Of a DNA stretch of 33,846 nucleotides, positions 1,654-33,733 are shown piece by piece. This stretch comes from a virus. Position 1 is the stretch's first letter, and each line of letters opens with the position of its first letter. The notes beneath the pieces were generated by a model that had not been told where the DNA came from, made no database searches, and saw nothing but the letters and a program-made list of their open reading frames with translations. The stretch lies in IMG/VR virus record IMGVR_UViG_3300008050_000149, positions 1 to 33,846 of that record, one strand, 5' to 3'. Both the position numbers and the translations under genes were made by a program.

Positions 1654-1661
1654 ACCCTAAT

Positions 1662-4600
1662 CTACATGTTAAACCATTTAATAGCTTCTCCTGGAGTTTT
1701 ACTATTTGTTATTCCTTTTAATGCAGGGACAGCTTTATATAATTTATTGTCCCATTTAAGTTCACCTTTTTTATTAGCTCCAGATTTTCTTTGATAGTAA
1801 ATATCTTTATCAGCTACTAATCCCCCTAAATTTCCTGTTCCAAAATAATATATATTTTCTAAAGTAGATAATGCAAATGCAAAAATATTTTCTACAGGTC
1901 TAACTGTTGCGGTAGGAGACTTAGTTAATCTCCAGGTTTCTTCAGGATTTAGATAAAACATAAGTTCAGATTGTAATCTTCTATTTTGATATAATAAAAA
2001 GTTTAACGCCCATGAATTAGGTTCGTCATCATCAGGATCTGCTAGTGCTACTAATCCAATTCCAAGTAATAAAGTCCCTGCTAAAGCGTATATTTCTGTT
2101 GCCACTCTCCTAATATTTTGTTTTTCTAATTCAGACATATTTTTATATTGACTACTTTGTGTTTTCATTGAGTCTCTAAGCATTTTATAAAAAGTAATAT
2201 AAGTTCCTTGAGTTAAAGCTCCTAATTCATGATCTGCATGCCAAGTTTCATAGTGCCCAAATCTTCTTCTATATCCAGGAGCCATCCAACCTCTAAATAG
2301 CATTACTAGTTTACCATACCAATGTCTTTTTAAATGAGCGGAATCAAAGTCATTATAAACACCATTAGTACGTTTATTTATACCATGAAGTCTATTTATA
2401 AATTGCATTTTATTAAAGTTAGCAACTCTGTCATCTATTTTTAATCTACCATTAACTTGACTATGAGCATCTAACATTGTCATATCAGAACCGTCAGGAT
2501 TTTTAAGCTGATTCCCATCTTTATCTTTAGCTTTCATGAACTCTAACATTCCTAGTCCTCTACTGACTTGAACCTCATGTTCTGCTCCGTGTTGTAAAAA
2601 GAACAAAGCATCTGATGAAAATAATTTTTTAGCAGCAGATCCTGTTTTATTTTTACCTACATTATCTTTAAAGTTTCCTTGAATCATATCATACTCATCA
2701 TTTAACTGTCCAACAAATGAAGTTGGTGCCATCTTACCTAAATCTGAAATTGCTCCTCCCTCAGCCCAATATTTTTGTTTTCCTTTTATTGCAGACTTTC
2801 TATCTATAAATTGTCCTGCAGCAGCCTCACTCCACCCTATTATATTATCAAGTACATTTTGGTTAAATCCTTGTAAAAGGTTAAATGATAAAGCATTCAT
2901 AGCTGTATATCCAGCTAATTTACCTGCTACTTTATTAGCTTCAAACTGCTTTCCTAAAAATGTAATTTGCTTTTTAATTGTTTTTTGATCATAATAATTT
3001 TGATCTAAAAATGATACTAAATGTTTAAAAGCATTACTTTCCTGCCCTTCTTTAGATCTAGGCATTTCTACTCCAAGGCCTTTTGCTAATTGATTCATAA
3101 TTTTAACACCATAAGGAGAAGTTAAATCTGTTTTTCTTGATTCAATTATATCTACCATTGTTTGCACTTGTCCTTGTATACTAGCTTTAGCTTCGTAAGT
3201 ATTAGCCATTGCTGCAAATTGTAGTATACTAGCTGTTAAATCTAAACTTACATCTTTGGCGTCTATAGGATTAGTAAATAATGCAGGAACAATTTTACGC
3301 TCTTTCCCTCCAATAGTTTCCCACTCTTGCCCATAAATATGTTTATCTGTTTCAGTTACATCTAAGCCATCTATCCACCATTCTTTTACTGTGGATTTAA
3401 CTCCTTGCTCTATAGTCCTATCTTTATCGATTTTTCTTATTGAAGGTAACATATACGACATATTATCAAAACTATTTTTACCTAATTGACTTGCTGCAGT
3501 TCCTAACCTATCTTGACTTTCTTTATATATTTTCTTTATACCATTATAAAACTTTTTCTTTCTAGGATCATTCATAATAGCAGCATACTTTGGATTACTA
3601 TAATCTACTCTTTTTCTATTTCCTGACATTTTTTCTCCTTGAGATGGCTTTATTAAGGATCCTTTAGGAGTTAAACTATCTGGATATCTAGGATTAACAT
3701 AATAATTAGTTTTTCTCCAATTTTCTAAATTACTTAATTCTATTTCTAAAGAGTTTAGTTCATCTAGTTCTAAGTCTGTAATTGTTTCAGCATCAACTTT
3801 CTTTTTTAAAGGGGATATTTTTTTATATACAGCTGCAATTTTACTCTCATGTTTACTCATAATAGCTTGAGCTTCAGGTATAGGCACAGTATTTTTTTGT
3901 CTCCATGCTCCCATAGCTTGTCCAAAAGCTTTTCTTGTTAAGTTATATAATTCTTTTCTTGTCTGAGCTTTATATACAACTTTACCGTCTTTCCCTGTGT
4001 AACTATCAATACTATTTAAATATTGTTCAAATAATTCTTCACTTTCAAAATCCTTTCTCTCTCTAAAATATGTTTCATTTTTTGCTTTTTCTACGGCTTC
4101 TTGTTTACTTTTTTGGTACCTATTCATATCTATTTCTTGAATAAGAGCTGCTCTTTCTATTTGTCTATATGTCCCATTTTCATCTCTTACCCATGAAGGA
4201 ACAACCTCTGTCATCTCGCTATATAACTTTTGAACATTATTTACTCCGCTTACACCTGTAGTAAAGTCATTATATAATTCTTGCATTTCATATGTATAGT
4301 CTCTACTTATTTCATCTCCTTTGTATAATGCATCTTTAACCGCTAATGCAAATAATTGTATAGCATTATCATTAGAGTATACTAAAGGGTCTACCCAGTA
4401 AGAAAGAGAAGTTGTATCTTTATGTGCTCTAGTTAATATTTCTACTAACTTATCTTTATGCAATTTTGATTTTTCTAACTGAGTAATAACTAAATTTACT
4501 AAATCTTGGTTATATTCATCTTCAGTTATTCTATCTTCTTTTAAAGCTTTTTTTAAAGCTATATATTCAAGATCTTTAGTATCTAAATGTCTATTTGCAG

Positions 4601-6200
4601 CTAACACCTGCGCATCAAGATCTTCTTGATCTTCAATATTTTTAATTAAACTATCTATATCATCATTTACTTCTTGTGATATATATGGAGTTAAAAAGTC
4701 TGCTTGTGCAGGTATTATAATTCTTATATATTGCTGTTCTAAAGACTTTCTTTGCTTAACTACAGCACCTAGTTTATCATAAGTAGAATTAAAAGCAGTT
4801 GTACGTTTAACCATTGTTGCTGCTTCGTCATAAAAAAGAGTTTCTAGTCCTCCTAATATATCAAATCCTCTAATATATTGATTTAACTCAGAAACATCCG
4901 CCATATCTTTAGAGCTTAACTTTTCTCCAGCTTTTAATTTTTTTTCTAGTAAATTATATTTATTTGCAATGTTACTAGTTATTTTAGCAGATATATCTAC
5001 AAAAGCTGTAAAGTCTTCTAAAGACTTTATATTTTCTAAAGTTTCTTCTAACGATTCAGCCCTAGCTCTACTTGCAGAATCATCACGATCTTCCGCTATT
5101 TTTTTTAATTGTCTAGCATATACTCTAACTTCATCAATTTTCTTTTGTAATCTACTTTCATCTTTAGACTCTTGTGTAAAGCCACTTATATTTCCTACAA
5201 AATGTTCTGAATTCATTTCTCCAGCAAACATTTGTTCAGCTAATTTTGCTGCAGCATTTTGTTGTATGCCTAATAATTTTCCAATAGCTCTAAATATTTT
5301 ATTAAAAATAATTTGTAGTTTAGAAGGATTTTTATTCTCTATCTTAGCTCCTTCTACACCTATAGCAGTTGCTAATATTTCTTTTTTTAATTTATCACCT
5401 TTTAAGTTAGGATAGTTTTCAAGAACTTTTGACTCAATAAAAGACCCTTTAAGTTGTTTAAGTGCTTCTTTAACTAAAGGATTATTCATACCAAGAAGAT
5501 CTACATAAGCATGTCCAAACTCATGATAAATGTCGTCTTCTTGAAAATAGCTATTATTTACTCTTATATCTGCAGATCTAGGGCCTGTACCGGTTATATC
5601 TGCTGACACATTAGGAGCTAAGTCATTAGTATACTCTACTCTGACAGTTACACCTACATTTTTAAAATTTCTTTTTAATTTTTCTGCTTTTTTCTGTGAT
5701 TCACTTTTAGTTTCCTCTTTTGCAAATCTATTTTTATTTTCTGAGGTATTTTCTCTTCTAACATTTTCTGAAAGAGATTGATCCGCAATTTTCATATCTC
5801 TCTGCTCTCTCGCTTCAGCAGCGGAAGCTTCTTCAGTATATATTTCCTGTATATCTTCAGGAAAAGTCATATTTTTTATACTATTAAGAACAGAATTATT
5901 TATTTTAAATGTATATTTTTCATTTAATCCTTTTCCAAATCTATTTGTAGTTTGTCCTTTATACTCATATTCAATAAGATTGGGATATCTTCTATTTATT
6001 CTTCTAGCATGATTTAAAGCTATACTAGAGTCCTCACCTTGATAAAGAAACATTTTACCATTATATTGTTGAATTACATCATATTCTTTAAGGATATCTT
6101 GTATCATACCTAAATTAGGATTTCTTTCTTCTAAAGCTCCATATAAATCTGTTAAGAATTGGCTTGGTCTCCCGTGTAAGTAAAATCTACATCTTTTCAT
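1662..6200 (-). CDS. giant virion cargo protein with zinc-peptidase motif and C-terminal membrane segment
   Basis: A 1,512-residue protein, last gene of the late operon, starting only 4 bases after the RNA polymerase stop and ending in the operon's only TAG. An N-terminal region (1-110) of unknown fold leads to a charged E/K/R-rich linker (about 120-180). A zincin-type motif follows, HEFGH at 226-230, with a plausible third ligand E274 in KKEILATAIG. Long helical, probably coiled-coil stretches fill about 350-1000. A hydrophobic helix lies near 1370-1390 (ALAGTLLLGIGLVAL), after a basic, aromatic segment. The same position beside the polymerase is taken by large capsid-internal proteins in crAss-like phages, so ejection into the host with the DNA is the likely role. 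Proteolysis is suggested only by the motif. The substrate is unknown and could be virion proteins or itself. Its only cysteine is C4. Confidence 0.72.
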   Translation of the reverse strand: MKRCRFYLHGRPSQFLTDLYGALEERNPNLGMIQDILKEYDVIQQYNGKMFLYQGEDSSIALNHARRINRRYPNLIEYEYKGQTTNRFGKGLNEKYTFKINNSVLNSIKNMTFPEDIQEIYTEEASAAEAREQRDMKIADQSLSENVRRENTSENKNRFAKEETKSESQKKAEKLKRNFKNVGVTVRVEYTNDLAPNVSADITGTGPRSADIRVNNSYFQEDDIYHEFGHAYVDLLGMNNPLVKEALKQLKGSFIESKVLENYPNLKGDKLKKEILATAIGVEGAKIENKNPSKLQIIFNKIFRAIGKLLGIQQNAAAKLAEQMFAGEMNSEHFVGNISGFTQESKDESRLQKKIDEVRVYARQLKKIAEDRDDSASRARAESLEETLENIKSLEDFTAFVDISAKITSNIANKYNLLEKKLKAGEKLSSKDMADVSELNQYIRGFDILGGLETLFYDEAATMVKRTTAFNSTYDKLGAVVKQRKSLEQQYIRIIIPAQADFLTPYISQEVNDDIDSLIKNIEDQEDLDAQVLAANRHLDTKDLEYIALKKALKEDRITEDEYNQDLVNLVITQLEKSKLHKDKLVEILTRAHKDTTSLSYWVDPLVYSNDNAIQLFALAVKDALYKGDEISRDYTYEMQELYNDFTTGVSGVNNVQKLYSEMTEVVPSWVRDENGTYRQIERAALIQEIDMNRYQKSKQEAVEKAKNETYFRERKDFESEELFEQYLNSIDSYTGKDGKVVYKAQTRKELYNLTRKAFGQAMGAWRQKNTVPIPEAQAIMSKHESKIAAVYKKISPLKKKVDAETITDLELDELNSLEIELSNLENWRKTNYYVNPRYPDSLTPKGSLIKPSQGEKMSGNRKRVDYSNPKYAAIMNDPRKKKFYNGIKKIYKESQDRLGTAASQLGKNSFDNMSYMLPSIRKIDKDRTIEQGVKSTVKEWWIDGLDVTETDKHIYGQEWETIGGKERKIVPALFTNPIDAKDVSLDLTASILQFAAMANTYEAKASIQGQVQTMVDIIESRKTDLTSPYGVKIMNQLAKGLGVEMPRSKEGQESNAFKHLVSFLDQNYYDQKTIKKQITFLGKQFEANKVAGKLAGYTAMNALSFNLLQGFNQNVLDNIIGWSEAAAGQFIDRKSAIKGKQKYWAEGGAISDLGKMAPTSFVGQLNDEYDMIQGNFKDNVGKNKTGSAAKKLFSSDALFFLQHGAEHEVQVSRGLGMLEFMKAKDKDGNQLKNPDGSDMTMLDAHSQVNGRLKIDDRVANFNKMQFINRLHGINKRTNGVYNDFDSAHLKRHWYGKLVMLFRGWMAPGYRRRFGHYETWHADHELGALTQGTYITFYKMLRDSMKTQSSQYKNMSELEKQNIRRVATEIYALAGTLLLGIGLVALADPDDDEPNSWALNFLLYQNRRLQSELMFYLNPEETWRLTKSPTATVRPVENIFAFALSTLENIYYFGTGNLGGLVADKDIYYQRKSGANKKGELKWDNKLYKAVPALKGITNSKTPGEAIKWFNM

Positions 6201-6204
6201 AATA

Positions 6205-9200
6205 TTATCTTATATTTATACATCTTTTAACAGCATCTTGTTCATCTTGAATAAATTCAGATTCTTCTTTTTCGTGTATTATAGGTAATCCAGGTTTAGT
6301 TTTGCTTTTACCTGCATTATTTATTTGAAGTACAGATTTATTTAATGGAGATCCTTCTATATCAGTTATATTAAATTCTTGCAATGCAAAAGGAACTCCT
6401 CTAGTAGTAGATTCTGAATAAGTTACATTAGCTGGTGTTTCAGATATTTTAACAAATAATTTAGAACCTGTTTTAGAAGACACAGTAAAATAATCTATAT
6501 TTTTTAGCAATTCTGGAGAATAAATTCTTTTATCTTTAGATTTAATAGTAAATGATTTTGCTCCAATTTTAGATTTACTAACTTTAATTGTAGGAACTAT
6601 CTCAGTATAATAAAAATTACGTATAAATTCATGTGCAAAATCTTCACCAAAATATTCTATATTGTCTAGTAAGTCATACTGTTCATAGAAATAATTAGAA
6701 GACCTTTTTAATGCTTCTACAGGTATTGTGTCTATAAAACTGTCATGTCCAGGAGTAAACCCATTAGATAGCACTGATACTCCTATAAAATCTAAAGCTA
6801 ACTGTCTTATCTCAAGCTCAGGATCTGTCATTAAGTTTCCAAATGCTCTTGTAAAAGAATCTTTTTCAGTTTTAGTAAATGAATATATATTTTGAAATTT
6901 AATTCTCGTTAATAATGATCCTTCTTTTATATTATTTGGGTGTTCTATTATATTTTTTATAAACGAATTATCTTCTAGTCTAGGAAATTCTAATTTTAAT
7001 CTTTGTAACTTAGATAATATATTAGTTTTAGGTCTTCTAAATAACTCATTTATTTTTTCATCTGTAAACATAGACTTTAAAGGACTATTTTCCCTAGACA
7101 TAACATATAATAACATAGCATCTTCTATTTGTCTGTGGTCTTTATCAGTTAAATTGTCTTTATTTAGCAGTCTTTGTATATCAGATTTACTTTTAATTAC
7201 TGCTCTTTTATTATGTATAAAAAATTCACCTCCAAAATCTAACATTTTATCAATTGCATTTTTATAGGCTTTTTGTAATGGATATGATCTACCTTCTAAT
7301 ATACTACTAACTCCTTTTACAATATTATTTTGTGCCAAAACGTTTCTTCTATTTTTAAATGATAATAGACCACCAAAAGTAGCTTGATCAGCACCTTTAT
7401 CTTGACTAATTACTGTATATGCAGCTGCTAATTCTCTACCTGTTTTATGGAAAGATAAAAAATTATTAAGATATCCAAGTTGATCTTCATGATTTATATT
7501 TTCTTCTGATATATTACTTAGTTTTTCAGTAAACATATCTGAAAATCCAAAATCTGTAAGTTCTGAAAATGGCATATCTAAATGCTGTCCAACAGTATAT
7601 TGTGATTTATATTGATCCCAAGTTTTACTTACAGCTTCATATAGCATATTAGGTGTATATTCCCCGTCTTGATATACTTGAGTTAACATCCTAATAATAG
7701 GTTGATTTAAATAATCATGTGTAGTAAATTCATTAATACCTACAGAATCAAATAAAGTATTTACAGGAGCTGTTAAAAGATTATCATTTCTAAAAAACAT
7801 ATCAGGAGCTTTTGCATTATCTACTGCAGAACTTAGTCGTTTAGATATAATATATTCTATAAATTCACTTTCTCTGTTTTCTATAGACTCAGATTTATCA
7901 TCTACTATTCTTTGTAGATTATTATACTCAACCCCATCAATAATAGGCGATAGTCCTGCATTTAAATACATTTCTGAATAAGATGCAACATTATTACCTG
8001 TTAAGCTATTTGCATAAATACTAATTCCAGTTTTACCATCTTTATTCATTCTTTCTAACAATACTTCTGAAAAAGAATCATTATGGTCAAGTTCTTGAGT
8101 TAAACCTAAAGTTTCTTTTATATTTTCTGCTATATTTTTAAGGTCTGGAGAATCTAATGGTTGTACAACTTCTTTAAAGTGTTTTTTAGATCTTAAAATA
8201 GCTTCTGATAAATCTATAATTACATTTTCTAATTCTTCTCTACCTAACTTTTCTAAAGCAATATAGTTTATATTTCCATTTATAAATAAATCATTATAAT
8301 TTACTTGTATTTTTTCTGGTCTTCCAGTTAGTTCATTTTTCCTTGTATTAGGCTGCATTAAATATAATGTATCAATATCAAAATCAGATCCCATTTGAGT
8401 TGTAATACCTGCTGGAACTACAATTGCTTGATCATAATTTCTAGGTAATACATATTTTATAATCATAGGTAACATTAAATTTTTACCTGCATTAGGTATA
8501 CGATATCCTATAAAAGTTCTTAAGCTCTCAGGAATTTGATTTAAATCATCTCCTGGTTTTAATCCGTATTGAGCAGCAATATCTGCACGTATAGCTACTT
8601 CTGCGTGTTTTATAGATCCATTTTCATTTCTAAGAAATTTTAATTCTGTCCAGTTACTTGGAAGATTAGTTGCTTTATTCCAAGTTACATGTCCTCCTAA
8701 TTCTCCTATTTGTTTTGCACTTCCTCCATTAATTCTTTGCTTAACTATATCATTTTTAAGCATCCCCATTACTAGACTTTCAGTTTTACGTTTTAAGAAA
8801 GGAAAGGATAGTGGAGTTTTAAATCTATAATTACCTTTTTCTGTTTTTTCTAATTCTAAGGCATTTAAATAATTATTAGATAAATCTTTATCTTTTATTT
8901 CTTCTTGTATTTTATTTCTTACCTTTTTAAGTAATTGTAATTGAGCATCAATTCTTTCTTCATGGCTTGCAGCATTCAATAGTTGTTTATATCCTACGTC
9001 AGTAATAAATTTATCATAACTTTTATCAATCATAGTTACTATAGTATTTTGATATAAATCAAAAACTTGCTGTGCGTTTAAAGCTATATTATTTCCACGA
9101 CCCTCATTTACACCATAATCTAAATTTGGAGAAGATAAATCCATATTAGCTATTATATTTATCATAAATTGTCTACTAAATAATCCAGAATCCTTACTTT

Positions 9201-12200
9201 TTTCTGGTACTATTTGGGGAATTCTAAGACCACTTCCTGGTAAAGTTGTTAAAGACATATTTGTTAATTTTTCTAACACTTCTTCTGCATTATTTAAATC
9301 TTCTACACCAGTATAAGCTAGTTTTTTAGTACTAACAGTATTTAATACATGCATTTCAGGTAAATTATAAAAATTACTTTCACCCTCCATTCGTTGTCTT
9401 ATCATTTCAGTAGTAGGATTAGTTTTAGTAAATTCTTCTAATAATACCATATATGAATTTTTAGTATTACTAGGAATCATAATACCATTTTTAAGAACCA
9501 TAGCATCAAAATATGTTTTAATAGGAGCTACTCTCCTACGTCTACCACTATTATCTCTGTAAACTTTATTTCCCGGTCTTCCTTTTTTATAATTTTGAAA
9601 CGCTTCTTCATCTTCAGGCAACCATTCTCCTTTTCCTTGTTGAAATGCTCTATGAAAATCTATAGATACAACTCCAAAAGCGTCTGATTTATTAGATTGT
9701 CCTCCTTTATATAAGTTACCTATACTTTCAGCTGCAGGATCTCCTTGTTGCTGTAATGTAGCTGTAATAGACTCTCCAATTGCATCATACACTAAACTAC
9801 TAGTAAAGAAGTCTTCCATCAATCCTTCATTAAAAGTTTTGTAAAATCCTACTCCTGGATCTTTTAAATCTCCTTTTAATAACATCTTATATCCAGGCGT
9901 TTCCATATTACCAAACCTTTTAGAAAAATCTGTATAGCTTTTGTTAAATGCAACACCCCCTCTAGTAAATTTTTGAAGTTCTATCTTATGTATCATATTA
10001 TTTAACTCAAACTGTATAAATAACTCTCTTACATTTGAATAAGGATTACTCATAGATTTATTAATTTTAGACATTAATCCTTTATTAACATAATATTGCA
10101 TATTTTTTGTAGCAGCATCGTTCATAGCTTTAACAACCTTTTCTACTTCTGTGTTTAAAGTGTCGTCTATAGCTTTTCTATTAAGAGTCATTATATTTCC
10201 AGCAAGATAGTCTCCCCAATTCACATCGCTTAAGTATCTTTCTACTTTTGTCCCAAATAATTCTGAATTTTCAGCTGCGGTAAACTGAGTTAATTGAAAA
10301 GCTGTACCTAAACCGTCTCCAGGAGTTTCTAAATAATGAAATCCGGGTATTAATTGATTTACTGGCAATCCTCCGTCTTCTACTAATTCTGTGTCTCGTT
10401 CAGCTTGTTGATACCTCATTAAATCTTGAATTATAATACCTTTTATTATGTCTTTTTTAGACAAATTTAATTTCTTTGTTATAGTATCTATAGAAGGAAC
10501 TGTATATGCTTTTAGTTTAGATCTATCAGAAAGATTAGGAACAAATAATTTAACATACCCCTTTTTACCTGACCTATCCATAAAAGCTGTGAGTCTAAAA
10601 TACGCAGACTGCAATTCATTCATTTCTCCAAAGTCAAATCCATGCCCACTAATTTTTCTATACCCATCAACTATATCTGTTCTTAAATTTGCCCTAGCTT
10701 CAGTAGAAAATTTACCTTCAAATCCTCCATATATTGATAACCATAATGATCTAGCAGCTTTATTAGAATCTAGGGGGTTATAAAAACCATCATTTAAATA
10801 AGGTGTAAAAAAATCTGAATTATTACCTTTAAGATTTAAAATAAGATCATCCATAACTGTAGGCATACTTATAGGAAATATAGAATTATTTTTAATATTT
10901 ATAAAAGATGTAAATATATCTACATCATTTTTCATAGTTATATTAGAAAATCTTGATAATATTCCTGTATACTTAGTATATATATTTTCACCTTTATTAA
11001 GACCTTTCATAAGTCTATTTAATTCACTAGATGTGCCGTTATCTAACATTGCTTTATATAAAGCTACTCCTTTTAACAATTGCCCAGTTTGAGAAAAGTC
11101 TGCAGATCCTTCATTAAAATAAGTAGTTAATAAATTTCTAGATTCTTGTGGAGAAGTAGAAAGATCTATTCCAAGCATATATAAAAAATTAATTAAATCT
11201 TCAATTCTTTTTTCAGGAACAGGTAATGTTGGATTAGCATCATATATTTTATTAATAGAATTAAAAACTGAATTTAATTTTTTTACTCTATTTTTATTGG
11301 GAGTATATATTAGATTATTTTCAACTTGTCTTATTTTATATAAGTGTCTTTCATTTGGAAAACCTGCATGCTCTGTTGCATTAGTTCTCCATCTGTCTAA
11401 TAATCTAGTTTGAATAGAATTACGATCAGAATTTATAAACTGCAAACCTTCTGCTGTTTCTTTACCTAAAAAGAAATTATTTTTACTTTGCATAAATGTG
11501 AAAGTAAATGCTGCACGTAAATTATCATCTGTATTTTCTTTTAATCTTTTATACACCTCAGCTATGTGGGGTTTTACTTTACTAGCTTTTTCTAGTTTAT
11601 TTAGTATTATAGGAAAAGACGTAGAATCTGCAAGAATATTTTGTAAATCTTTATAAAGATTATCAAATTCCATAAAAGTTTCATACCCTAAATAAGAAGC
11701 TTCTTGTGTAGGAATAGACGATAAGAAATCTTTAACAATAGATCCTGTTTTTTTCAACATGTCTTCTTCTACTCTAGATCTAGAATAAATTCTTTCGTAT
11801 GCTGAACCCTCTTCTGTTTCTTCTAAAATAACTTCTCCTAATTTTAACTTTAATCCAATATTATCTATACTATCTCTCATCAAACTCTCAAATCCAATAC
11901 GTCTTAGATTTTCAGTTTCAGAGTTATCAACTAAGTCATTCCAATTTTCATAAATATTTATTAAATATGCATGATTATTTTGTGCAGGATACGCTTGAGT
12001 TTTTAGTTCTCCTTCTATAGGTTGTGGTGATGATTTAACAATTCCATTATCTTTTAATAATCCGTCAAATCTTGACTCCATCCATTGTTTTAATACTTCT
12101 AAATCTTTAGGTCCTTCTATAGGTAACCCTTCTTTAGTAGAAAAAGCTTCTCTTAGTACAGAATTTTTTATTTTATTATTTAAACTCTTATAAGGGACTT

Positions 12201-14595
12201 TTTTACCTTTATCTTTATAGCTTTTTATAGTGTTTCTATACCTAGCTGATAAATAATCTAATACTTCTCTTATATTTTTATCGGTATATCCTTCTATAGA
12301 ATTAACGGTATCTCCTGAAAATCTTTGAATATTTCTTCTAAATGTTACAGGAACTACATTAGACTCAAGCATTTCATATGCCTGTCTAATACTCATATTA
12401 TCAGTAAACATAGATTTAATAAAATTCCATATATCTCTAAAGAATTTACCTATTTTACCTCCTGGAGAAGAGTTTCCATCAGTAAGCATATGCTCTCTAA
12501 AGTCTTCAGCCATTTTCTCTTCTAAAACTAATTCTTCAGCTTCTTTTATAGACAGTCTTTCTAGTCCCAGTTTTTCTCTAGTATCATTTAATTCTTTTAT
12601 TTCTCTATCTGTAGGTATTCCCCATTTTTTTCTAGCTTCATTATATAAATATTCTCTTTGCTTATCATTAAGCCACATTCTAAACATACCGTGAAAAGCT
12701 TCATGAAATTCTGTTCCTGTTCTAGCATTTTGATATAAATAAAAAGCCATATTTTCAAAATATCCATGTCTTGTTATATTACCTATTTTATTAACTCCTT
12801 GTAGTATTGTAGTAGATCCTTTTCCAAATCTTTCTTCTAGCCATATCTTTGCTCTTTCAGTATCTAATGGAAGTGATTTTTTATTACCTACAGTAACACT
12901 AAAAGCTGTTAAGTCTTCTAAATCTGAAGGTTTAATTTTTGGACCTTTATTTATATTAGGCCCTGCAGATACTACTTTTGGGGTTCCTCTTAAATTAGGA
13001 GCTATTGCAGGATTTAATCCTCCTTCAGGCATAAAAGAAGGATCAGTTAATATAGATTTACCGTCAATTAGTACATCATTAAAATTTAAACGTGTATTAT
13101 AATAAACAGAACCGTTTATATTTTTTATATCTGTATTTAAAATAGCTCCATTATTTTTAATAGGTATATTATACACATACGGATCTCCATGTGCTTCTTC
13201 GCTAAAAAGATACTCTTGATATGTATTATATCCTGAAGGTTTGGTAAACCCAGGTATAGAAAATTGTTCTTGACTTGATAATAAATCTATATTTATTTGA
13301 TGTTTTTTCTTTTTAAGAACTTCTAAAAATTCATTTATTACTTCATTTACATTATCAGAAGGTGATACTTTTATAGTTTTTGCTGTTTGCCATTTAAAAT
13401 TTGGAACTGCTCCTTCAAAAGAAGTCTGAACGAACTTTCCAATGTTAAAAGTAAAACCTTCTTTATTAAGACCTTTATTAAACTCTTCAGAAGTTATTCT
13501 TACAGCTTTATCGTGTTTAGGACTATAAAAATTTATAAATGTAAGATCTTTATCCTCTTCTGGTTTAAAAACATCAGTTATAGTTGGGACAGTTTCAATA
13601 GATAAAAATTTAGGGTCTTTATGCGCAAATTCTCGAAAAGTACTATTACCTACAATGTGATGAATATTTTCACTTCTATTATTTTTTAACTCATTTAAAA
13701 CATATTCATAAGCTTTGTTAGATAAACTTCTTGTACTTAATTTAATATAAGAATATTTACCTTCTGGAGTAAGACTTAGAGAAAATATTTGTCCTCTATG
13801 ATCAAGTTGAGGTAATCTTTTAGGTTCTCCTAAATCTCCAATAATAGCTTCTTGTATTTTAGGATCTAAATAACTTAAGTCTCCAGGAGTCCATTTAAGT
13901 GGTGCAGCTTCATTACCAACTCCTGTAGCAACAAGTAATATAGGTCTAGACTCTTCAGGACTAGCTGTAATAAAATTACCATCAATATCTCTAAAAGTGT
14001 GCATCTTTAATTGCTCTTCTACACTAAAAAATACCGGCATACCCCCAATTCTAATATTATTAAAATTAGGCATTTTAGATTCTACTTGTAATTCAACCTT
14101 TTTTCCTTCTTGTAAAGCTTCGTATATTGCTTTTCTAGCATGTGTATCTATATTAGTTTCTTTGTAAGCTTCAAGTAAATCTACCCTAGTACCATCTTTA
14201 TCTACAAGATATAAAGGAGCTTCCATCCAAGCTTCTTCTACTTTGTCTTTATTATTAGCCCAATAATCATTCTCTATAAATTGAACTTCTACAAAATCTC
14301 CAGGTAATACTTTGGGGGTATTTAAACTATTTGAATCTAGTTCATCTAAAACATTATTTATAGTATTAGGATTGTTTTTAATCGGTATAATCTCATCTCC
14401 TTGAATTGCTACAGCTCTTCTAACTTTACCTTCAACAATAGCAATTTTATTTTCATACTGAGCATTAGAAATATTAATAGTACTAGTATCTACTTCTTTA
14501 TTTGCTTGCATGCGTTCCTCTATAGCAGCCTTAAGTTTAGCAATTTTATTTAACCTTGCTTCAAAACTTTCTATTTTATTTACATTACATCCCAT
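6205..14595 (-). CDS. virion DNA-dependent RNA polymerase of crAss-like phages, fused to zincin-like domain
   Basis: A 2,796-residue protein. The segment GYRIPNAG (2030-2037), then IVVP, then QMGSDFDIDTLYLMQP with DFDID at 2071-2075, matches the crAss-like virion RNA polymerases. It corresponds in layout to beta' NRAPTLHR...NADFDGD of cellular enzymes, with 41 residues between the two motifs here. D2071, D2073 and D2075 should bind the catalytic Mg2+. The enzyme is thought to be packaged, injected and used to transcribe early genes without host polymerase. Separately, a zincin-type motif HEAFH (631-635) with a likely third ligand E697 (KMAEDF) lies far upstream. Residues 1-550 and the part beyond about 2300 have no assigned function. 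The characterised phi14:2 enzyme is, as I recall, nearer 2,200 residues, so this one is long. Its only cysteines are C3 and C2792. The downstream gene follows after 4 bases. The polymerase call is strong; protease activity is unproven. Confidence 0.9.
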   Translation of the reverse strand: MGCNVNKIESFEARLNKIAKLKAAIEERMQANKEVDTSTINISNAQYENKIAIVEGKVRRAVAIQGDEIIPIKNNPNTINNVLDELDSNSLNTPKVLPGDFVEVQFIENDYWANNKDKVEEAWMEAPLYLVDKDGTRVDLLEAYKETNIDTHARKAIYEALQEGKKVELQVESKMPNFNNIRIGGMPVFFSVEEQLKMHTFRDIDGNFITASPEESRPILLVATGVGNEAAPLKWTPGDLSYLDPKIQEAIIGDLGEPKRLPQLDHRGQIFSLSLTPEGKYSYIKLSTRSLSNKAYEYVLNELKNNRSENIHHIVGNSTFREFAHKDPKFLSIETVPTITDVFKPEEDKDLTFINFYSPKHDKAVRITSEEFNKGLNKEGFTFNIGKFVQTSFEGAVPNFKWQTAKTIKVSPSDNVNEVINEFLEVLKKKKHQINIDLLSSQEQFSIPGFTKPSGYNTYQEYLFSEEAHGDPYVYNIPIKNNGAILNTDIKNINGSVYYNTRLNFNDVLIDGKSILTDPSFMPEGGLNPAIAPNLRGTPKVVSAGPNINKGPKIKPSDLEDLTAFSVTVGNKKSLPLDTERAKIWLEERFGKGSTTILQGVNKIGNITRHGYFENMAFYLYQNARTGTEFHEAFHGMFRMWLNDKQREYLYNEARKKWGIPTDREIKELNDTREKLGLERLSIKEAEELVLEEKMAEDFREHMLTDGNSSPGGKIGKFFRDIWNFIKSMFTDNMSIRQAYEMLESNVVPVTFRRNIQRFSGDTVNSIEGYTDKNIREVLDYLSARYRNTIKSYKDKGKKVPYKSLNNKIKNSVLREAFSTKEGLPIEGPKDLEVLKQWMESRFDGLLKDNGIVKSSPQPIEGELKTQAYPAQNNHAYLINIYENWNDLVDNSETENLRRIGFESLMRDSIDNIGLKLKLGEVILEETEEGSAYERIYSRSRVEEDMLKKTGSIVKDFLSSIPTQEASYLGYETFMEFDNLYKDLQNILADSTSFPIILNKLEKASKVKPHIAEVYKRLKENTDDNLRAAFTFTFMQSKNNFFLGKETAEGLQFINSDRNSIQTRLLDRWRTNATEHAGFPNERHLYKIRQVENNLIYTPNKNRVKKLNSVFNSINKIYDANPTLPVPEKRIEDLINFLYMLGIDLSTSPQESRNLLTTYFNEGSADFSQTGQLLKGVALYKAMLDNGTSSELNRLMKGLNKGENIYTKYTGILSRFSNITMKNDVDIFTSFINIKNNSIFPISMPTVMDDLILNLKGNNSDFFTPYLNDGFYNPLDSNKAARSLWLSIYGGFEGKFSTEARANLRTDIVDGYRKISGHGFDFGEMNELQSAYFRLTAFMDRSGKKGYVKLFVPNLSDRSKLKAYTVPSIDTITKKLNLSKKDIIKGIIIQDLMRYQQAERDTELVEDGGLPVNQLIPGFHYLETPGDGLGTAFQLTQFTAAENSELFGTKVERYLSDVNWGDYLAGNIMTLNRKAIDDTLNTEVEKVVKAMNDAATKNMQYYVNKGLMSKINKSMSNPYSNVRELFIQFELNNMIHKIELQKFTRGGVAFNKSYTDFSKRFGNMETPGYKMLLKGDLKDPGVGFYKTFNEGLMEDFFTSSLVYDAIGESITATLQQQGDPAAESIGNLYKGGQSNKSDAFGVVSIDFHRAFQQGKGEWLPEDEEAFQNYKKGRPGNKVYRDNSGRRRRVAPIKTYFDAMVLKNGIMIPSNTKNSYMVLLEEFTKTNPTTEMIRQRMEGESNFYNLPEMHVLNTVSTKKLAYTGVEDLNNAEEVLEKLTNMSLTTLPGSGLRIPQIVPEKSKDSGLFSRQFMINIIANMDLSSPNLDYGVNEGRGNNIALNAQQVFDLYQNTIVTMIDKSYDKFITDVGYKQLLNAASHEERIDAQLQLLKKVRNKIQEEIKDKDLSNNYLNALELEKTEKGNYRFKTPLSFPFLKRKTESLVMGMLKNDIVKQRINGGSAKQIGELGGHVTWNKATNLPSNWTELKFLRNENGSIKHAEVAIRADIAAQYGLKPGDDLNQIPESLRTFIGYRIPNAGKNLMLPMIIKYVLPRNYDQAIVVPAGITTQMGSDFDIDTLYLMQPNTRKNELTGRPEKIQVNYNDLFINGNINYIALEKLGREELENVIIDLSEAILRSKKHFKEVVQPLDSPDLKNIAENIKETLGLTQELDHNDSFSEVLLERMNKDGKTGISIYANSLTGNNVASYSEMYLNAGLSPIIDGVEYNNLQRIVDDKSESIENRESEFIEYIISKRLSSAVDNAKAPDMFFRNDNLLTAPVNTLFDSVGINEFTTHDYLNQPIIRMLTQVYQDGEYTPNMLYEAVSKTWDQYKSQYTVGQHLDMPFSELTDFGFSDMFTEKLSNISEENINHEDQLGYLNNFLSFHKTGRELAAAYTVISQDKGADQATFGGLLSFKNRRNVLAQNNIVKGVSSILEGRSYPLQKAYKNAIDKMLDFGGEFFIHNKRAVIKSKSDIQRLLNKDNLTDKDHRQIEDAMLLYVMSRENSPLKSMFTDEKINELFRRPKTNILSKLQRLKLEFPRLEDNSFIKNIIEHPNNIKEGSLLTRIKFQNIYSFTKTEKDSFTRAFGNLMTDPELEIRQLALDFIGVSVLSNGFTPGHDSFIDTIPVEALKRSSNYFYEQYDLLDNIEYFGEDFAHEFIRNFYYTEIVPTIKVSKSKIGAKSFTIKSKDKRIYSPELLKNIDYFTVSSKTGSKLFVKISETPANVTYSESTTRGVPFALQEFNITDIEGSPLNKSVLQINNAGKSKTKPGLPIIHEKEESEFIQDEQDAVKRCINIR
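8371..8385 (-). other. RNA polymerase catalytic triad DFDID
   Basis: These five codons encode D2071-F-D2073-I-D2075 of the giant polymerase, the metal-chelating loop of the beta'-like double-psi beta-barrel. Cellular enzymes have DFDGD here; isoleucine in the fourth place is the variant I associate with crAss-like phage polymerases. Confidence 0.88.
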
Positions 14596-14599
14596 TTAA

Positions 14600-18574: not shown

Positions 18575-18590
18575 ATGTGATCTATTTTAA

Positions 18591-21380
18591 TTATCTATTT
18601 GCATTGTTAATTTTGGTTTGTACTAAAATTGACAATCCTTTTTCTTTACTATGAGATTCTCCATTAATAATAATTTTATCTTTTCCTCCACCACTTCTAT
18701 CATATTTAAATGTTACATTTGAATATTGACTTGGAGACCACTCATCTAGCCTATTCAGAACACCTGTATTCCATTGTGTATTAACTTCCATTTCTGGACT
18801 ATTAACATACTCACTTAAAGCAGGTAAATCAAAATAATGAGCAGGTATTAAATAACTAAATACTTTACCTTTATGTGGATTATAAGTAGGATCTGTTGGT
18901 TTACTAGAACCATTTGTAATTTTTATAGGAACGTAAATCATTGCACCATCATCACCTAGTTCTAAATTTAATACTCCCATTTGATCTTCTATAATATCAT
19001 ATTCTACAATCTTGTTAAAATGATTATTTTCATTATCTGTCTTACTGTTTAAAAATCCTTCTTCCCATTCCATATTAGGACTTTCACCTTGAGCATCTCT
19101 CATTGCAAAATTTGAAGGAATTACATTATCTTTAAAGAAGTCTTGTAATTGATCATTAACAATACTAGTAGTTTCAAATTTAGATCCAAAATTAGTAATA
19201 ACTGCAGCTTCAAAAGATATTGGAGTTCCACTAAAGTGTGAAGCAAACTCTTTATCTAAATATGATTTATCTTCGTTTAATTGCTTAATAAACATTTCTA
19301 CTCCCATATTAAAAGACTGTTGCTGATTGTTATTATCATATCTATATCCATCATCTACTCCTGCCCATGTATATTCTCCTGTACCTCTTTGATAAGTTCC
19401 ACTAACTGTATGTCCTTGCTTTTGTTTAACCTTAGCTATACCTTGGATTAAATCATGAATATTTTCATTTCTATTACCGGCAAATGCAAAGCTTTCAAAT
19501 ACATTTCCTTGATAAAATTCTTCCGGTAATTCCGTTAAATTAGATATTGATGAAGGCATATTATGTTTTTTAACAGCTTCTGGATCTTGTGCTGCAAGCC
19601 AATTATATCCATCTACAATATCTTGTCCTGTAATCTGTAAATCAGAATCTCCATGTCCCAGCTCTGTTTTTAATAATTGATCACCTCTAGCTTCTGCATA
19701 TTCTGAATATGTTAAATTATTACCATATCCTTCAGAGTTAGGGAGAGAAAGACCTAAACCTGACGTAAGTTTGGCATTAGTTGCATCATACTTTTGAGCT
19801 TGAGAACTAAGTGTGTACATAGTACTATTAAATTTACCTATATCTAACTCATTATGTGCTGCAACATTAGTTAAATAACTCATTCCTTTCTGTCGTTTCT
19901 GCATTATACTATTTTCATAAGCTAAATACGCATCATCAAGACGTGCTAAGTATGTAGCTTGATCTTCAATAACATTTCCTTTACCATCTTCTAAAGGTTG
20001 TAACGTATTTATAGTATTTCTCCATGGAATATAATCTAGCTTTTTAGTATTAGCTTGTATAGTTGCAGTTCTCCAGCCATCAACTAACGCTTCTGTATTT
20101 TGAATAATTTCAGTATTAGTCATTTCTTCAAGATTTAACCCTTGTCCTCCTGATCCAAAAATTACATTACCATCATCATCTTTTTCAATTTTATCTGGAT
20201 CTACATTAAGTTGACCACTGACTAAAGCAATATTACCTTTTATTAAATCAATTGTCTCTTTTTGATTATTTACAGCATCTTCATAACTTGTACTTTCTGG
20301 TTTTATTTGGACTAATGTATTATATGATAAATTATCATCATCAACTTTTGTTTTCTTAGCACTTTCTGTTTTAGCTTTTGCATTTATTTTATACATTTCA
20401 TCGTATGATATAGTTTGACCATATGAACTTTCTCTAACTCCTCCAAATGCACCTATTGCTAATTGAGTTTCTCTATTTATAGAATCTTGATACATTAGAT
20501 TTTGTAATGTATTTAAAGGTCCATTTGTTTCTAACATCGACTCCCCCTGTTCATTAATAAGGTCTTCTTCTTTTAGATCTCCTGATGCAAATAATTTATT
20601 AATATGTTCCATAGCACCTTCATCACCAAGATGATAAGTATTTATATCTACCTCTTGAGCTAAAGATGCTGAAACATCAGGATCAGCCATTACATCATTA
20701 ACAACCATTTGTATTATATTAGAAGGAAGTTCTACTGTTTTACTCTTAGTTGTAACCCAATACTTAGGTTCTCCCCTAGCATTTGTAGTACTAGTAACTT
20801 CCATATTTTCATTATAAGGAATAGAAGTACCTAAATTTTGACGAATAAAAGGTTCAATTTCTTTTAGTCTTTCATTAATCTTTTCTGTAATATCTACATC
20901 ATGATAAAATTCTTTACCGGAATATACAGAGTTATTTACTAAAGATCCATCTTCTCCATATTGAATACCTTGATACATAGCATCTGATTGAGCTGCTCTA
21001 CCTTGATATGTATTTGCATTAATATTACCTTTTTCATAAGCGTCTTTTAGTCTTGTTAAATATTCATTTCTATTTGTAACGCTTTGTTGTATAGGAGAAT
21101 AGTCTTTAACAAATTGATTAGCACCTTTATTTATTGCTATTCCTAAAGTTTCATAATCTCCACGAGACGACCAACCATCTAGCATTCCTGTGTATTCTTC
21201 AGAAAGTCTATTTTTTATGTGTTGATCTTTTTCTAAAGCTTGCATATTACTCACAGAGTTTGAAAACTCATCAGCTGCACTATACCCTTCGATATACTGA
21301 TTTCTTGCTAATTTAGCTAATTCTACTGTCCCTAAATCTTTATAGGTTGAAATTGGTTTTGGTATGTCTATTCTTGCCAT
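18591..21380 (-). CDS. internal virion (cargo) protein, function unknown
   Basis: A 929-residue soluble-looking protein with no membrane helix, no recognised catalytic motif and no cysteine. The first 120 residues are helical and charged, resembling the N-termini of other crAss-like cargo proteins (SAADEFSNSVSNMQALEKDQ). The remainder is acidic and N/D/Q-rich. The last 150 residues look beta-rich, with hydrophobic strands such as AMIYVPIKITNGSS and FSYLIPAHYFDL. It lies 10 bases after the transglycosylase gene and 16 bases before the next cargo gene, so it is co-expressed with both. A role in the ejected complex, like that of T7 gp15, is inferred from order only. Confidence 0.68.
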   Translation of the reverse strand: MARIDIPKPISTYKDLGTVELAKLARNQYIEGYSAADEFSNSVSNMQALEKDQHIKNRLSEEYTGMLDGWSSRGDYETLGIAINKGANQFVKDYSPIQQSVTNRNEYLTRLKDAYEKGNINANTYQGRAAQSDAMYQGIQYGEDGSLVNNSVYSGKEFYHDVDITEKINERLKEIEPFIRQNLGTSIPYNENMEVTSTTNARGEPKYWVTTKSKTVELPSNIIQMVVNDVMADPDVSASLAQEVDINTYHLGDEGAMEHINKLFASGDLKEEDLINEQGESMLETNGPLNTLQNLMYQDSINRETQLAIGAFGGVRESSYGQTISYDEMYKINAKAKTESAKKTKVDDDNLSYNTLVQIKPESTSYEDAVNNQKETIDLIKGNIALVSGQLNVDPDKIEKDDDGNVIFGSGGQGLNLEEMTNTEIIQNTEALVDGWRTATIQANTKKLDYIPWRNTINTLQPLEDGKGNVIEDQATYLARLDDAYLAYENSIMQKRQKGMSYLTNVAAHNELDIGKFNSTMYTLSSQAQKYDATNAKLTSGLGLSLPNSEGYGNNLTYSEYAEARGDQLLKTELGHGDSDLQITGQDIVDGYNWLAAQDPEAVKKHNMPSSISNLTELPEEFYQGNVFESFAFAGNRNENIHDLIQGIAKVKQKQGHTVSGTYQRGTGEYTWAGVDDGYRYDNNNQQQSFNMGVEMFIKQLNEDKSYLDKEFASHFSGTPISFEAAVITNFGSKFETTSIVNDQLQDFFKDNVIPSNFAMRDAQGESPNMEWEEGFLNSKTDNENNHFNKIVEYDIIEDQMGVLNLELGDDGAMIYVPIKITNGSSKPTDPTYNPHKGKVFSYLIPAHYFDLPALSEYVNSPEMEVNTQWNTGVLNRLDEWSPSQYSNVTFKYDRSGGGKDKIIINGESHSKEKGLSILVQTKINNANR

Positions 21381-21390
21381 ATTTTATGTA

Positions 21391-24321: not shown

Positions 24322-24333
24322 AATTTTTATTTT

Positions 24334-25770
24334 TTAAAAGTTATAGCCATATCTTGGCATTTCCATCATCATTCCTCCATGTTTATACATTACATTTCTA
24401 CCAAGGTTTTGACCAGATACTGTTTTCTGTGCTAAATTACCTGCTCTAACACCACTCATATGACTACCATATAAACTACCTACTCTTTTGTTTAAATCTC
24501 TAATTCCTGTATTTCTTCTAACTCTTGCTTCTCCTTCAGCTTCAGTTTGAGCTTTCTTTGCTTTTTTAGTTCCAAAATATTGCTTACCTGCTCCAATTAC
24601 TGCTCCAATACCTGCACCAATTGCTGTACCAGGACCAGGAAAGAAAGATCCAATAGTAGCTCCAGTACCAGCAGATTGTAATATTTGGCCTGAATATTCC
24701 CCAACATTAGATTTAGTAGGATCATCATCATCAGATAGTGCACTTATACCTCGACCTGCTAAATTAGCTATTGTTCCTATACCTGCCCCAGATGTAGCAA
24801 AACTTTTTAATCCAGTTCCAACAGCACTCCCTGTCTTCATTACTTCTCCTGCAGCATTTACAACCTGCCCTGCCTCATTAACTGTACCTCCAATATCTGC
24901 TGCTATTTTTGCAGCTTCAATTCCTGCTTGAGCTTGTTGCGCGGTTTGAACTCCAAGTTGTGTTCCTTCAGCAGCTTGACCTGCAAGATTAGCTGCCTTT
25001 GTATATTTAGCGGCAGTTTGAGCTGCTTTTACAGCTGAACCCAATCCACCACCTTGATTAGGATAAAGATTCTGTCCAATTGTTTGTGCAGTTCTACCTG
25101 CTATTCCTTCTAATGCACTTGTTTGTTGTTGAGATTGTTGTTCTGCTTTCATAGCTTCTACTTCAGCTTGTTGCTGATCTATAGACTCTTGGTGTCTTGT
25201 TTGGCTTATAAGGCCTTGAGCATTTTCTCCCAATGTTGATGTAGATTGTTGTAATCCTTGTAGTCTAGCTTGCTGAATAGCTGGGTCTGTTTCTTGTCCT
25301 ACAATTGTAGAGCTAACTCCTAATTGAGGACCTCCCTGTCCTGCAGCTGATACAGTATTATCATACATTCCACCAGTCTCTCTACGACTAGGACTTCCTG
25401 CAGAATAATAACCTAATCCTGCTCCAACTTGTCCATATGCAATTGGCCTTGTGTTTTGCATCGCATTAACACCAGCTTGTTGATACATTTTAGGTCCTCC
25501 ATACTTATATTGCATGACACCGCCTAATTTTTTAGTATTTTGTCTAGGAACCGTTCCTTTAACAGGAGGGAATCCTAATACTTTAGTTCCGTCACTTTTT
25601 ATATAATATACTCCTATTGAAACTTTATTTTCTCCGAGTCCTGTTTTAGTAGTATTTATTAATTTTCCACCAACTTGTTTATAATTTTTTGGTATTCCAT
25701 TTGTAACGTTTATTAAGTTACTGAAATCATTGTCTTTTTGTCCAGCTGTTTGATATAATTTTTTATTCAT
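24334..25770 (-). CDS. Gly/Ala/Gln-rich internal virion protein with glycine-zipper membrane segment
   Basis: A 478-residue, cysteine-free protein. The N-terminal 150 residues carry short GG motifs: QVGGKL (32-37), KLGGVMQYKYGG (81-92), ETGGMY. The middle (about 185-330) is A/Q/G/T-rich helix of low complexity (QTAQQAQAGIEAAKIAADIG). Near 365-402 lies a hydrophobic glycine-zipper segment (FFPGPGTAIGAGIGAVIGAG) flanked by a basic helix (YFGTKKAKKAQ). The C-terminus repeats the GG theme (YKHGGMMMEMPRYGYNF). Together with its place before the transglycosylase gene this recalls T7 gp14, the small membrane-active ejection protein, as an analogy of order and composition rather than homology. It starts 12 bases before the transglycosylase gene's leader and ends the run of small cargo genes next to the tail gene. 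Confidence 0.68.
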   Translation of the reverse strand: MNKKLYQTAGQKDNDFSNLINVTNGIPKNYKQVGGKLINTTKTGLGENKVSIGVYYIKSDGTKVLGFPPVKGTVPRQNTKKLGGVMQYKYGGPKMYQQAGVNAMQNTRPIAYGQVGAGLGYYSAGSPSRRETGGMYDNTVSAAGQGGPQLGVSSTIVGQETDPAIQQARLQGLQQSTSTLGENAQGLISQTRHQESIDQQQAEVEAMKAEQQSQQQTSALEGIAGRTAQTIGQNLYPNQGGGLGSAVKAAQTAAKYTKAANLAGQAAEGTQLGVQTAQQAQAGIEAAKIAADIGGTVNEAGQVVNAAGEVMKTGSAVGTGLKSFATSGAGIGTIANLAGRGISALSDDDDPTKSNVGEYSGQILQSAGTGATIGSFFPGPGTAIGAGIGAVIGAGKQYFGTKKAKKAQTEAEGEARVRRNTGIRDLNKRVGSLYGSHMSGVRAGNLAQKTVSGQNLGRNVMYKHGGMMMEMPRYGYNF

Positions 25771-31237: not shown

Positions 31238-32121
31238 TAATTTCTATATAAATCTTCTCTTGTATTCATTTGTTCAAATCCTAAATCATGTCTATTTAAA
31301 CTAGGTATAAGTCTAACCCATTGATTCATAAATGATTCATACCTATCTATATCTGGGTAATTTGCTGCGTTTCTTGCTTGTGTGCAATAATACTTCCATT
31401 GTTGTTCTGCAAAATCATATTTAATTCCATTAACTTTAAATGTTGGATTAAATAATAAAATCTTTTTATATATATACCAAAACATTGCTTCTTTAAAACT
31501 GACATCATCTGGTACTAAAGGATAACAATCTTCATCAGTTGGAAATGCCATATAACTTAAACATATTTTTCCACTTACAAATGATGTTTTTATATACCCA
31601 TCGTCTATAATATAAGTATCTTCATAGCTAGCACTTTCATTAACACATCCTTCACAGTGCATACTTCTATGAAAATTACTTGCTCCATATTGCAAAGGTT
31701 GTAATCTATTACCATCTGAAAAATAAACATTTTCTAATATTACAATTCTACTGTTTATTTCATGTAAGACTGAAGCGGTATCAGAGTACTCTAAACTATT
31801 AGCTTGAGCATCTACAATAGCAGCTTTTAACTCTTTTACTTTAGTAGTTAAAGTATCTAATTCAGAAGATGCTGTAGGAGATACAGAATTATTAATAGCT
31901 ACTTGATTAATGTAATATAAATCTGCAGGTAACAAAACTTTATGATTATCAACTGTTAAAATACATTGTTTTTTTACTAATTGAGATGCAGATCCTATAT
32001 GCTCTAAAGCTTCACCTATCCATTCAATTGCATCATCAATCCAATTATCATCAGACGGTTTAAGATCTCTAAAGATCTTTCTTATTATTTCTTTACTTGA
32101 TATTGTTTTATATACTGCCAT
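31237..32121 (-). CDS. head-tail connector / tail tubular-like ring protein
   Basis: A 294-residue protein. The N-terminal helices (SSKEIIRKIFRDL, DDAIEWIGEALEHIG) followed by the strand-turn CILTVDNHKVLLPADLYYI match the organisation of the crAss-like tail tubular/adaptor proteins, which have P22 gp4 / T7 gp11-type folds. A helical heptad segment (about 85-125, TLTTKVKELKAAIVDAQ) looks like an insertion in that fold. Residues about 165-190 carry a cysteine pair, CEGC, that may bind metal. The C-terminal half is helical and aromatic (KEAMFWYIYKKILLF). It is probably a multimeric ring below the portal. The start follows a 24-base A/T-rich gap. Its TAA overlaps the tail protein's ATG. The family placement is good; which ring it forms is unknown. 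Confidence 0.65.
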   Translation of the reverse strand: MAVYKTISSKEIIRKIFRDLKPSDDNWIDDAIEWIGEALEHIGSASQLVKKQCILTVDNHKVLLPADLYYINQVAINNSVSPTASSELDTLTTKVKELKAAIVDAQANSLEYSDTASVLHEINSRIVILENVYFSDGNRLQPLQYGASNFHRSMHCEGCVNESASYEDTYIIDDGYIKTSFVSGKICLSYMAFPTDEDCYPLVPDDVSFKEAMFWYIYKKILLFNPTFKVNGIKYDFAEQQWKYYCTQARNAANYPDIDRYESFMNQWVRLIPSLNRHDLGFEQMNTREDLYRN

Positions 32122-32145
32122 ATTATTATTTTATATTTCTTCATA

Positions 32146-32619: not shown

Positions 32620-32621
32620 AT

Positions 32622-33335: not shown

Positions 33336-33340
33336 TTTAA

Positions 33341-33733
33341 TTAATATGTGTTAGTATTGTTTCCATTATTTCTAGGTTTAGTTTTTATTATTACATCTAG
33401 TGTGTTATCAGTTTTAATATATAAACTGTGTTTTACATTATTATACTCTATACAAATATCACTACCTTCTAAATGCAATGTTACTCCTTTAGGAATTATA
33501 AGATTTTTAAATAAATAATATGATTCTTGTGTGCGAGTTTCATTGTCATAATCATGTCCACTATCAGGCATAAAATTACCATATGTTCTGTATAAATATA
33601 AATCTATAGTACAATCGTTAGTATTATCAGTATTACATAAAACTATACTTGATATAACACTGCTTGATAAATCTGTTTTATTTATCAATGGTTCACCAGT
33701 AGTTGTAGTTATATTTTTATATGTATATATCAT
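33341..33733 (-). CDS. small beta-sandwich structural protein (decoration or tail accessory)
   Basis: A 130-residue, beta-rich protein. Strands such as SSVISSIVLCNTDN, CTIDLYLYRTY, YYLFKNLIIPKGVTLHLEG and HSLYIKTDNTLDVIIKTKP form the pattern of a small beta-sandwich found in phage head or tail accessory proteins, in which a 'cytokine-like' IVLCNT strand precedes a VDLYL strand and a turn at I-P-x-G. It ends 5 bases before the next gene. The leader TTAAGTAACAAGTAAATAATAATAA has no Shine-Dalgarno. The virion role is inferred from fold type and location; whether it is on head or tail is unknown. Confidence 0.6.
   Translation of the reverse strand: MIYTYKNITTTTGEPLINKTDLSSSVISSIVLCNTDNTNDCTIDLYLYRTYGNFMPDSGHDYDNETRTQESYYLFKNLIIPKGVTLHLEGSDICIEYNNVKHSLYIKTDNTLDVIIKTKPRNNGNNTNTY

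Follow-up and report, generated by a model that had tools for sequence, protein, structure and literature searches.

The window analyzed here is a 33.8-kb piece of a crass-like phage genome (33,846 nucleotides; IMG/VR record IMGVR_UViG_3300008050_000149) that encodes a block of large cargo proteins from which cysteine is nearly absent, and it raises the question of why the few cysteines that remain lie where they do. All four in the cysteine-poor cargo proteins are within five residues of a chain end: C1322 of 1,324 in sub1, C3 and C2792 of 2,796 in the catalytic chain, and C4 of 1,512 in sub3. Uniform placement would put four cysteines at such ends with a probability of 6e−10. They mark both places where one chain of the virion RNA polymerase (RNAP) module, made up of sub1, the catalytic chain and sub3, gives way to the next. 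The first-pass annotation of this sequence had pointed to the scarcity of cysteine and handled these residual cysteines as noise; they proved to be the most conserved feature. The window conforms to a rule found across its relatives, with a cysteine at each end turned toward a neighboring module chain (pairs C1322/C3 and C2792/C4) and none at the outer ends, and this rule is a new and stronger finding than the depletion itself.

The same sites are occupied in other crass-like phages. Numbered from the N or C terminus, the terminal cysteines lie at C-3 of gp47, N5 and C-9 of gp50, and N5 of gp49 in crAss001, and at C-1 (sub1), N3 and C-2 (RNAP), and N3 (sub3) in phi14:2; they are also present in cr85_1, cr111_1, Dulem41, cr106_1, and two relatives of the window (G001 and G002). 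Where sub1 and RNAP are fused (Fpv3, Fpv1, cr52_1, and cr4_1), cysteine occurs only at the remaining junction, and where RNAP and sub3 are fused (CrAssphage ZA, cr3_1, and cr271_1), it occurs only at the sub1 junction. Single-chain giants of 5,472 to 5,711 amino acids (L045, L047, L049, L051, L052, and L053) contain no cysteine at all. The Leptolyngbya phage Lbo-JY46 (L150 and L152), for which a cyanobacterial host is listed, carries a crass-type muzzle and the sub1/RNAP terminal pattern C-1/N4.

Crass-like loci were fetched from IMG/VR, the main set being found with an alignment of window-type polymerases. The rule was assessed in 91 representative loci with polymerase cores less than 60% identical, and chain architecture was assigned by sub3 homology together with a table of consecutive open reading frames (ORFs); counts of ends omit five loci in which an intron, in-frame stop, or frameshift was present or the break was unplaced. 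A cysteine lay within 10 residues of 221 of the 225 ends facing another module chain and of none of the 145 outer or fused ends. Two of the four misses were due to wrong start codons (L085, MASC; L147, MKSC), and the others had the cysteine 18 (L115) or ∼21 (L145) residues from the end; at a limit of 22 residues the counts became 225/225 and 0/145, unchanged at 30. The background in control ORFs was ∼9.5% per end. The rule holds both in L069, which reads TGA as an amino acid (table 4), and in the Suoliviridae-type loci L141 to L145, which read TAG as Gln.

Depletion in these proteins is strong and their chain ends are poorly conserved, as would be expected if depletion alone were real and the terminal cysteines were harmless leftovers at flexible ends. 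That reading is very improbable, being contradicted by the facing-end counts against the control background and by the absence of cysteine from outer ends that should be equally tolerant; only a bias in the choice of loci could rescue it. Over the final 500 residues of sub1, moreover, this cysteine is the sole invariant column across 15 proteins that are 10 to 16% identical to that of the window and were not selected for cysteine. In sub3, no position of the first 500 other than M1 and C4 is invariant across 24 proteins, a set selected for an N-terminal cysteine; the alignment of nine catalytic chains has 3,500 columns, of which ∼60, C3 and C2792 included, are invariant.

When consecutive large ORFs were paired without classification, 110 pairs had cysteine on both facing ends, 97 on neither, and 8 were discordant. 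Five of the discordant pairs came from three loci where a foreign ORF interrupts the junction; the others were those of L145 and L147 and one from another protein class (L077). Unusual breaks also carry the pair: L039 has an extra 585-amino-acid chain (N3 + C3), and L146 is broken within the catalytic domain. Breaks lacking the pair coincide with a group I intron (identified with Rfam in L142; L141 is broken at the same site), with frameshifts (L127 and L090), or with an in-frame stop (L054), and in these the chains are probably not truly separate. The L142 intron (RF00028) spans positions 6078 to 6380 within the virion RNA polymerase gene; a second RF00028 intron lies elsewhere in L029 (bajarodcaudo virus 1; positions 4058 to 4350), in which an endonuclease ORF splits the polymerase gene as well. 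In crAss001-type genomes sub1 is on the opposite strand, and its C-terminal cysteine is still present (7/7). Because the rule holds with sub1 on the opposite strand and kilobases away, it cannot be due to a DNA signal where the genes meet.

On the polymerase tree, at least 10 changes between the split and fused states are needed at the first junction and at least 7 at the second. With curated labels, cysteine followed the split or fused state in 9/9 and 6/6 independent pairs, respectively; before curation, the figures were 9:1:1 and 6:0. Curation consisted of the start-codon check of L085, removal of the frameshifted L127, acceptance of the L145 cysteine near C-21, and reassignment of L101 and L113, in which the break falls inside the sub1 region. 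The uncurated figures are given as well because this reassignment was made after the cysteines had been seen. The sequence rule, its freedom from gene adjacency and order, and its covariation with chain breaks and fusion are thus established. No published account of terminal cysteines in crass cargo was found in a search that did not take in Drobysheva 2021, the key polymerase paper, or most subscription papers.

Two layers of selection probably underlie this pattern: internal cysteines are selected against, and cysteines at facing ends staple the polymerase chains together, most likely by disulfide. We infer the contact of the two ends, its disulfide nature, and the threading purpose. Avoidance of internal cysteine would prevent wrong disulfides during storage, threading, or passage of the periplasm, a pressure seemingly strongest where oxygen is present, and one cysteine would be retained at each end facing another module chain. 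C1322 of sub1 would bond with C3 of the catalytic chain and C2792 of the latter with C4 of sub3, giving a head-to-tail covalent string of ∼5,600 residues. Internal cysteines would compete for pairing or give branched or looped chains. Single-file passage of the string is proposed because tail constrictions are narrower than the folded cargo; in crAss001 they are said to demand partial unfolding of the cargo (PMC10172136). The string would leave the narrow tail with its order fixed and in a 1:1:1 ratio, and its bonds would be reduced in the cytoplasm, allowing the chains to come apart. In fused genes, where no pair is found, the peptide bond would do the stapling; the pair is present where that bond is lacking. 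Inter-subunit disulfides were modelled in the crAss001 tail (PMC10172136), so the particle can hold such bonds, although purification may have been in air. That crass-like phages inject a multichain RNA polymerase as one disulfide-stapled string, released in the reducing host cytoplasm, is given an even chance of being correct.

The both-or-neither pattern requires only that the two ends act jointly, and a cysteine-mediated link of another kind, for instance through a shared metal ion or some modification, could assemble the polymerase in the virion or after delivery. The pair persists in phages whose hosts are likely anaerobes, which would suit such a link. It is nevertheless unlikely, as each end offers a single cysteine; no conserved His or second cysteine was seen beside it, leaving fewer ligands than a usual zinc or iron-sulfur site needs. 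Since the neighboring residues are unconserved and include no conserved His, a metal site formed by one end alone is also disfavored. Structure predictions for the window did no more than place the cysteines at the extreme ends, in a short tail or helix end (pLDDT of 68 at the sub3 N terminus and 51 at the sub1 C terminus).

Each cargo protein is thought to be present in the particle in several copies (PMC10172136), and the terminal cysteines might instead connect identical chains to one another, or attach each end to some third component (portal, DNA, or cargo protein 1), the pairing across junctions being indirect. This is quite improbable, for it leaves unexplained both the lack of cysteine at outer ends and its appearance on both sides of new breaks.

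Several points weigh against disulfide stapling. The main doubt is that phages of likely anaerobes conserve the pair: it is kept in phages with an oxygen-sensitive reductase (L074, L082, and L109) as well as in gut lineages, in which disulfide formation may be inefficient, and in such phages it coexists with up to 26 internal cysteines. The several chains that N4, T7, P22, and phiKZ each eject carry no such pairs; a staple was sought in these four and in lambda, and none was found. Copy numbers of the sub1, RNAP, and sub3 proteins are merely estimated in the literature, and the Fisher P values reported here are uncorrected for kinship.

As to the depletion itself, the counts in the first-pass annotation were exact: 4 cysteines in 7,039 cargo residues (0, 0, 1, 1, and 2 per protein) against 32 in 2,639 tail and connector residues (14, 6, 3, 6, and 3 in the proteins of 1,821, 294, 157, 237, and 130 amino acids; Fisher test, P = 1.3e−14). 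Its argument that base composition cannot be the cause also stood, as ∼92 cysteines were expected in the five cargo proteins from position-specific composition per gene. Counting TGT and TGC in the cargo genes gives 4 in frame, against 114 in one of the other frames and 313 in the remaining one. Cysteine is the extreme among the 20 amino acids, with a log2 cargo/tail ratio of −4.27 (19-fold); Trp follows at −1.06 (twofold). Given the scarcity of in-frame TGY relative to the other frames, the number expected, and the merely twofold drop in Trp, the depletion in the window is real and specific. The cargo proteins are rich in Glu, Lys, and Gln, and their genes abut within a few bases, features that could point to an artefact arising from AT richness, from low cysteine content in helical or coiled-coil proteins, or from a junction DNA signal. 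Such an artefact is scarcely credible given the out-of-frame TGY codons, the modest change in Trp, and the rule's persistence between opposite-strand genes kilobases apart. Base composition, junction DNA signals, and end tolerance were all rejected by controls.

Cysteine was wholly absent from T7 gp15 and gp16 (2,065 amino acids), P22 gp7, gp16, and gp20 (1,309), the lambda tape measure H (853), and N4 gp50, gp51, and gp52 (4,294). T7 has two further ejected proteins, gp14 and gp6.7, whose sole cysteine is at position 2 with no partner end (L020, positions 27728 to 28318 and 18864 to 19130). In the polymerase module of the main set, internal cysteine averaged 0.041% in 65 representatives, 40 of which had none, whereas control ORFs held 1.14%; Intestiviridae-type loci averaged 0.23% and Suoliviridae-type loci 0.29%. 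Control ORFs held 1.1 to 1.4% cysteine in the main and Intestiviridae-type sets and 0.56% in the Suoliviridae-type set, which had few. Many relatives' polymerases had 0.1 to 0.6%, the highest value in a cargo homologue being 0.64% (L087), and the phiKZ virion polymerase is not cysteine-free (5/1451 and 2/490). Phages with the oxygen-dependent ribonucleotide reductase small subunit NrdB had no internal cysteine (6/6; L072, L075, L080, L083, L099, and L104), whereas those with the oxygen-sensitive NrdD had 0.08 to 0.35% (3/3; L074, L082, and L109), a contrast that fits an oxidation-related pressure in a set that is small and uncorrected for kinship.

The first-pass proposal that ejected proteins are selected against free thiols therefore holds in part. 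Exclusion is real, selective, and shared with T7, P22, lambda, and N4, but for N4-like virion polymerases the absence of cysteine and its explanation by threading and the periplasm had already been published (PMC3715699, PMC3915230, and PMC2784036, the last citing Kazmierczak 2002). As a general law it fails on L087, the Intestiviridae-type mean, and the cysteines of the phiKZ polymerase, and homologous cargo in related genomes thus speaks in part against the first-pass proposal. Because the N4 explanation is in print and crass and phiKZ homologues carry cysteine, the depletion is known in kind and not universal; the window polymerase itself, with two cysteines, both terminal, differs from the N4 kind, which has none in the whole chain. 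Absence of cysteine has already been used for calling a virion polymerase (PMC10747016). As a predictor of ejected proteins from sequence only, which the first-pass annotation had suggested, cysteine exclusion was rejected, given cargo homologues that contain cysteine and cysteine-free proteins that are not ejected; false positives included scaffolds, some capsid and tail proteins, and phiKZ gp181.

The window belongs to the Crassvirales virion type, with PF25731, PF24228, and PF25702 all above cut-offs, and its polymerase to the two-barrel type of phi14:2 gp66 (phmmer match to 6VR4), with D2071, D2073, and D2075 of the catalytic DxDxD motif invariant in the polymerase alignment (A3). Transcription on the minus strand runs from the 130-amino-acid protein through ring 2 (PF25702), the 157-amino-acid protein, ring 1 (PF24228), and the muzzle to the cargo block, in the order 478, 976, 929, 1324, 2796, and 1512 amino acids. 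In crAss001, virion presence and ejection of the cargo were found by mass spectrometry (PMC10172136), and by homology the sub1, RNAP, and sub3 proteins of the window are likely to be ejected virion cargo as well.

Table 1. Location of the module, its terminal cysteines, and neighboring genes in the window
Feature	Position	Strand	Cysteines or role	Match
Cargo protein, 478 aa	24334..25770	−	0 Cys	
Transglycosylase/MORN-like protein, 976 aa	21391..24321	−	4 Cys as two close pairs (439/444, 953/956)	
Cargo protein, 929 aa	18591..21380	−	0 Cys	
sub1, RNAP-associated cargo, 1324 aa	14600..18574	−	1 Cys	Profile match: homologue of crAss001 gp47 and phi14:2 gp67; phrog_32390
Catalytic virion RNA polymerase, 2796 aa	6205..14595	−	2 Cys, both terminal	6VR4 (phi14:2 gp66), 5.2e−16; crAss001 gp50 homologue
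sub3, RNAP-associated cargo, 1512 aa	1662..6200	−	1 Cys	Profile match: homologue of crAss001 gp49 and phi14:2 gp65
Muzzle protein, 1,821 aa	25772..31237	−	14 Cys; nonejected control	PF25731
Ring 1, 157-aa protein, ring 2, 130-aa protein	31237..33733	−	18 Cys together; controls	PF24228, PF25702
Codon of sub1 C1322	14609..14611	−	C-terminal half, first junction pair	
Codon of catalytic chain C3	14587..14589	−	N-terminal half, first junction pair	
Codon of catalytic chain C2792	6220..6222	−	C-terminal half, second junction pair	
Codon of sub3 C4	6189..6191	−	N-terminal half, second junction pair	

The four cysteines of the transglycosylase-like protein were confirmed. In the window, G001 (26515 to 30324), and G002 (56760 to 60020), transglycosylase/MORN proteins keep a CX4C mid-chain and a CxxC ∼21 to 24 residues from the C terminus, close pairs that contrast with the single terminal cysteines of the polymerase chains. 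Cargo protein 1 of Steigviridae keeps a CX7C and no other cysteine (crAss001 gp45, 390/398; cr111_1, 224/232; cr106_1, 259/267; loci L019, 1988 to 4516; L030, 6120 to 8348; and L032, 35867 to 38233), the even number suggesting a local disulfide. Muzzle-adjacent cargo beginning MKKKC or MKKRC, with a single cysteine at residue 5, was found in Fpv3 (L026, 24913 to 26709), Lbo-JY46 (L150, 25762 to 27786), and L077; Fpv1 (L151) has Ser at that residue. G001 also encodes a cysteine-free ORF of 764 amino acids beside the presumed portal gene (77876 to 80170), possibly a scaffold or more cargo. Long ORFs with 4 to 6% cysteine occur in G001 (1528 to 5871, 9979 to 12477, and 977 to 1510) and G003 (30291 to 34901 and 39757 to 41964), with examples of 62 cysteines in 1447 amino acids and 47 in 832, the latter with a signal-peptide-like start; these are possibly virion or surface proteins.

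How megadalton complexes pass through a tail narrower than folded proteins with order and ratio kept is an open question for crAss001 (PMC10172136) and N4 (PMC12633501). That ∼90 distinct lineages have a cysteine pair at each chain break and none at fused junctions suggests a simple chemical solution. The rule gives a sequence-based order of the ejected chains (sub1, catalytic, and sub3) and predicts which separately encoded proteins join in the particle. If true, a stapled string would be a new route for delivering a protein complex through a narrow channel, with a cysteine pair replacing a peptide bond.

The virion polymerase of N4 has a T7-like polymerase fold. Its gp50 (3500 amino acids, Schitoviridae) is likewise ejected and cysteine-free, a lack that was attributed in print to passage through the tail and periplasm (PMC3715699, PMC3915230, and PMC2784036); it differs in being one chain, with no junction inside the enzyme and no terminal pair, and gp51 and gp52 are also free of cysteine. 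Also among the closest systems are crAss001 (gp47/gp50/gp49) and phi14:2 (gp67/gp66/gp65), which have the same module, homologous chains, and the same terminal cysteines as the window; chain lengths differ, and PMC10172136 describes no role for the terminal cysteines. Interchain disulfides are present in particles of phage Milano, in the tail (PMC10811340), and of crAss001, in the tail and portal vertex (PMC10172136). Those bonds hold a stationary shell or tail, whereas the ones proposed for the window would link the facing ends of ejected chains. The phiKZ virion polymerase is also multichain and packed in the head; it differs in lacking terminal cysteine pairs and in having 0.3 to 1.3% internal cysteine in gp149, gp178, and gp180.

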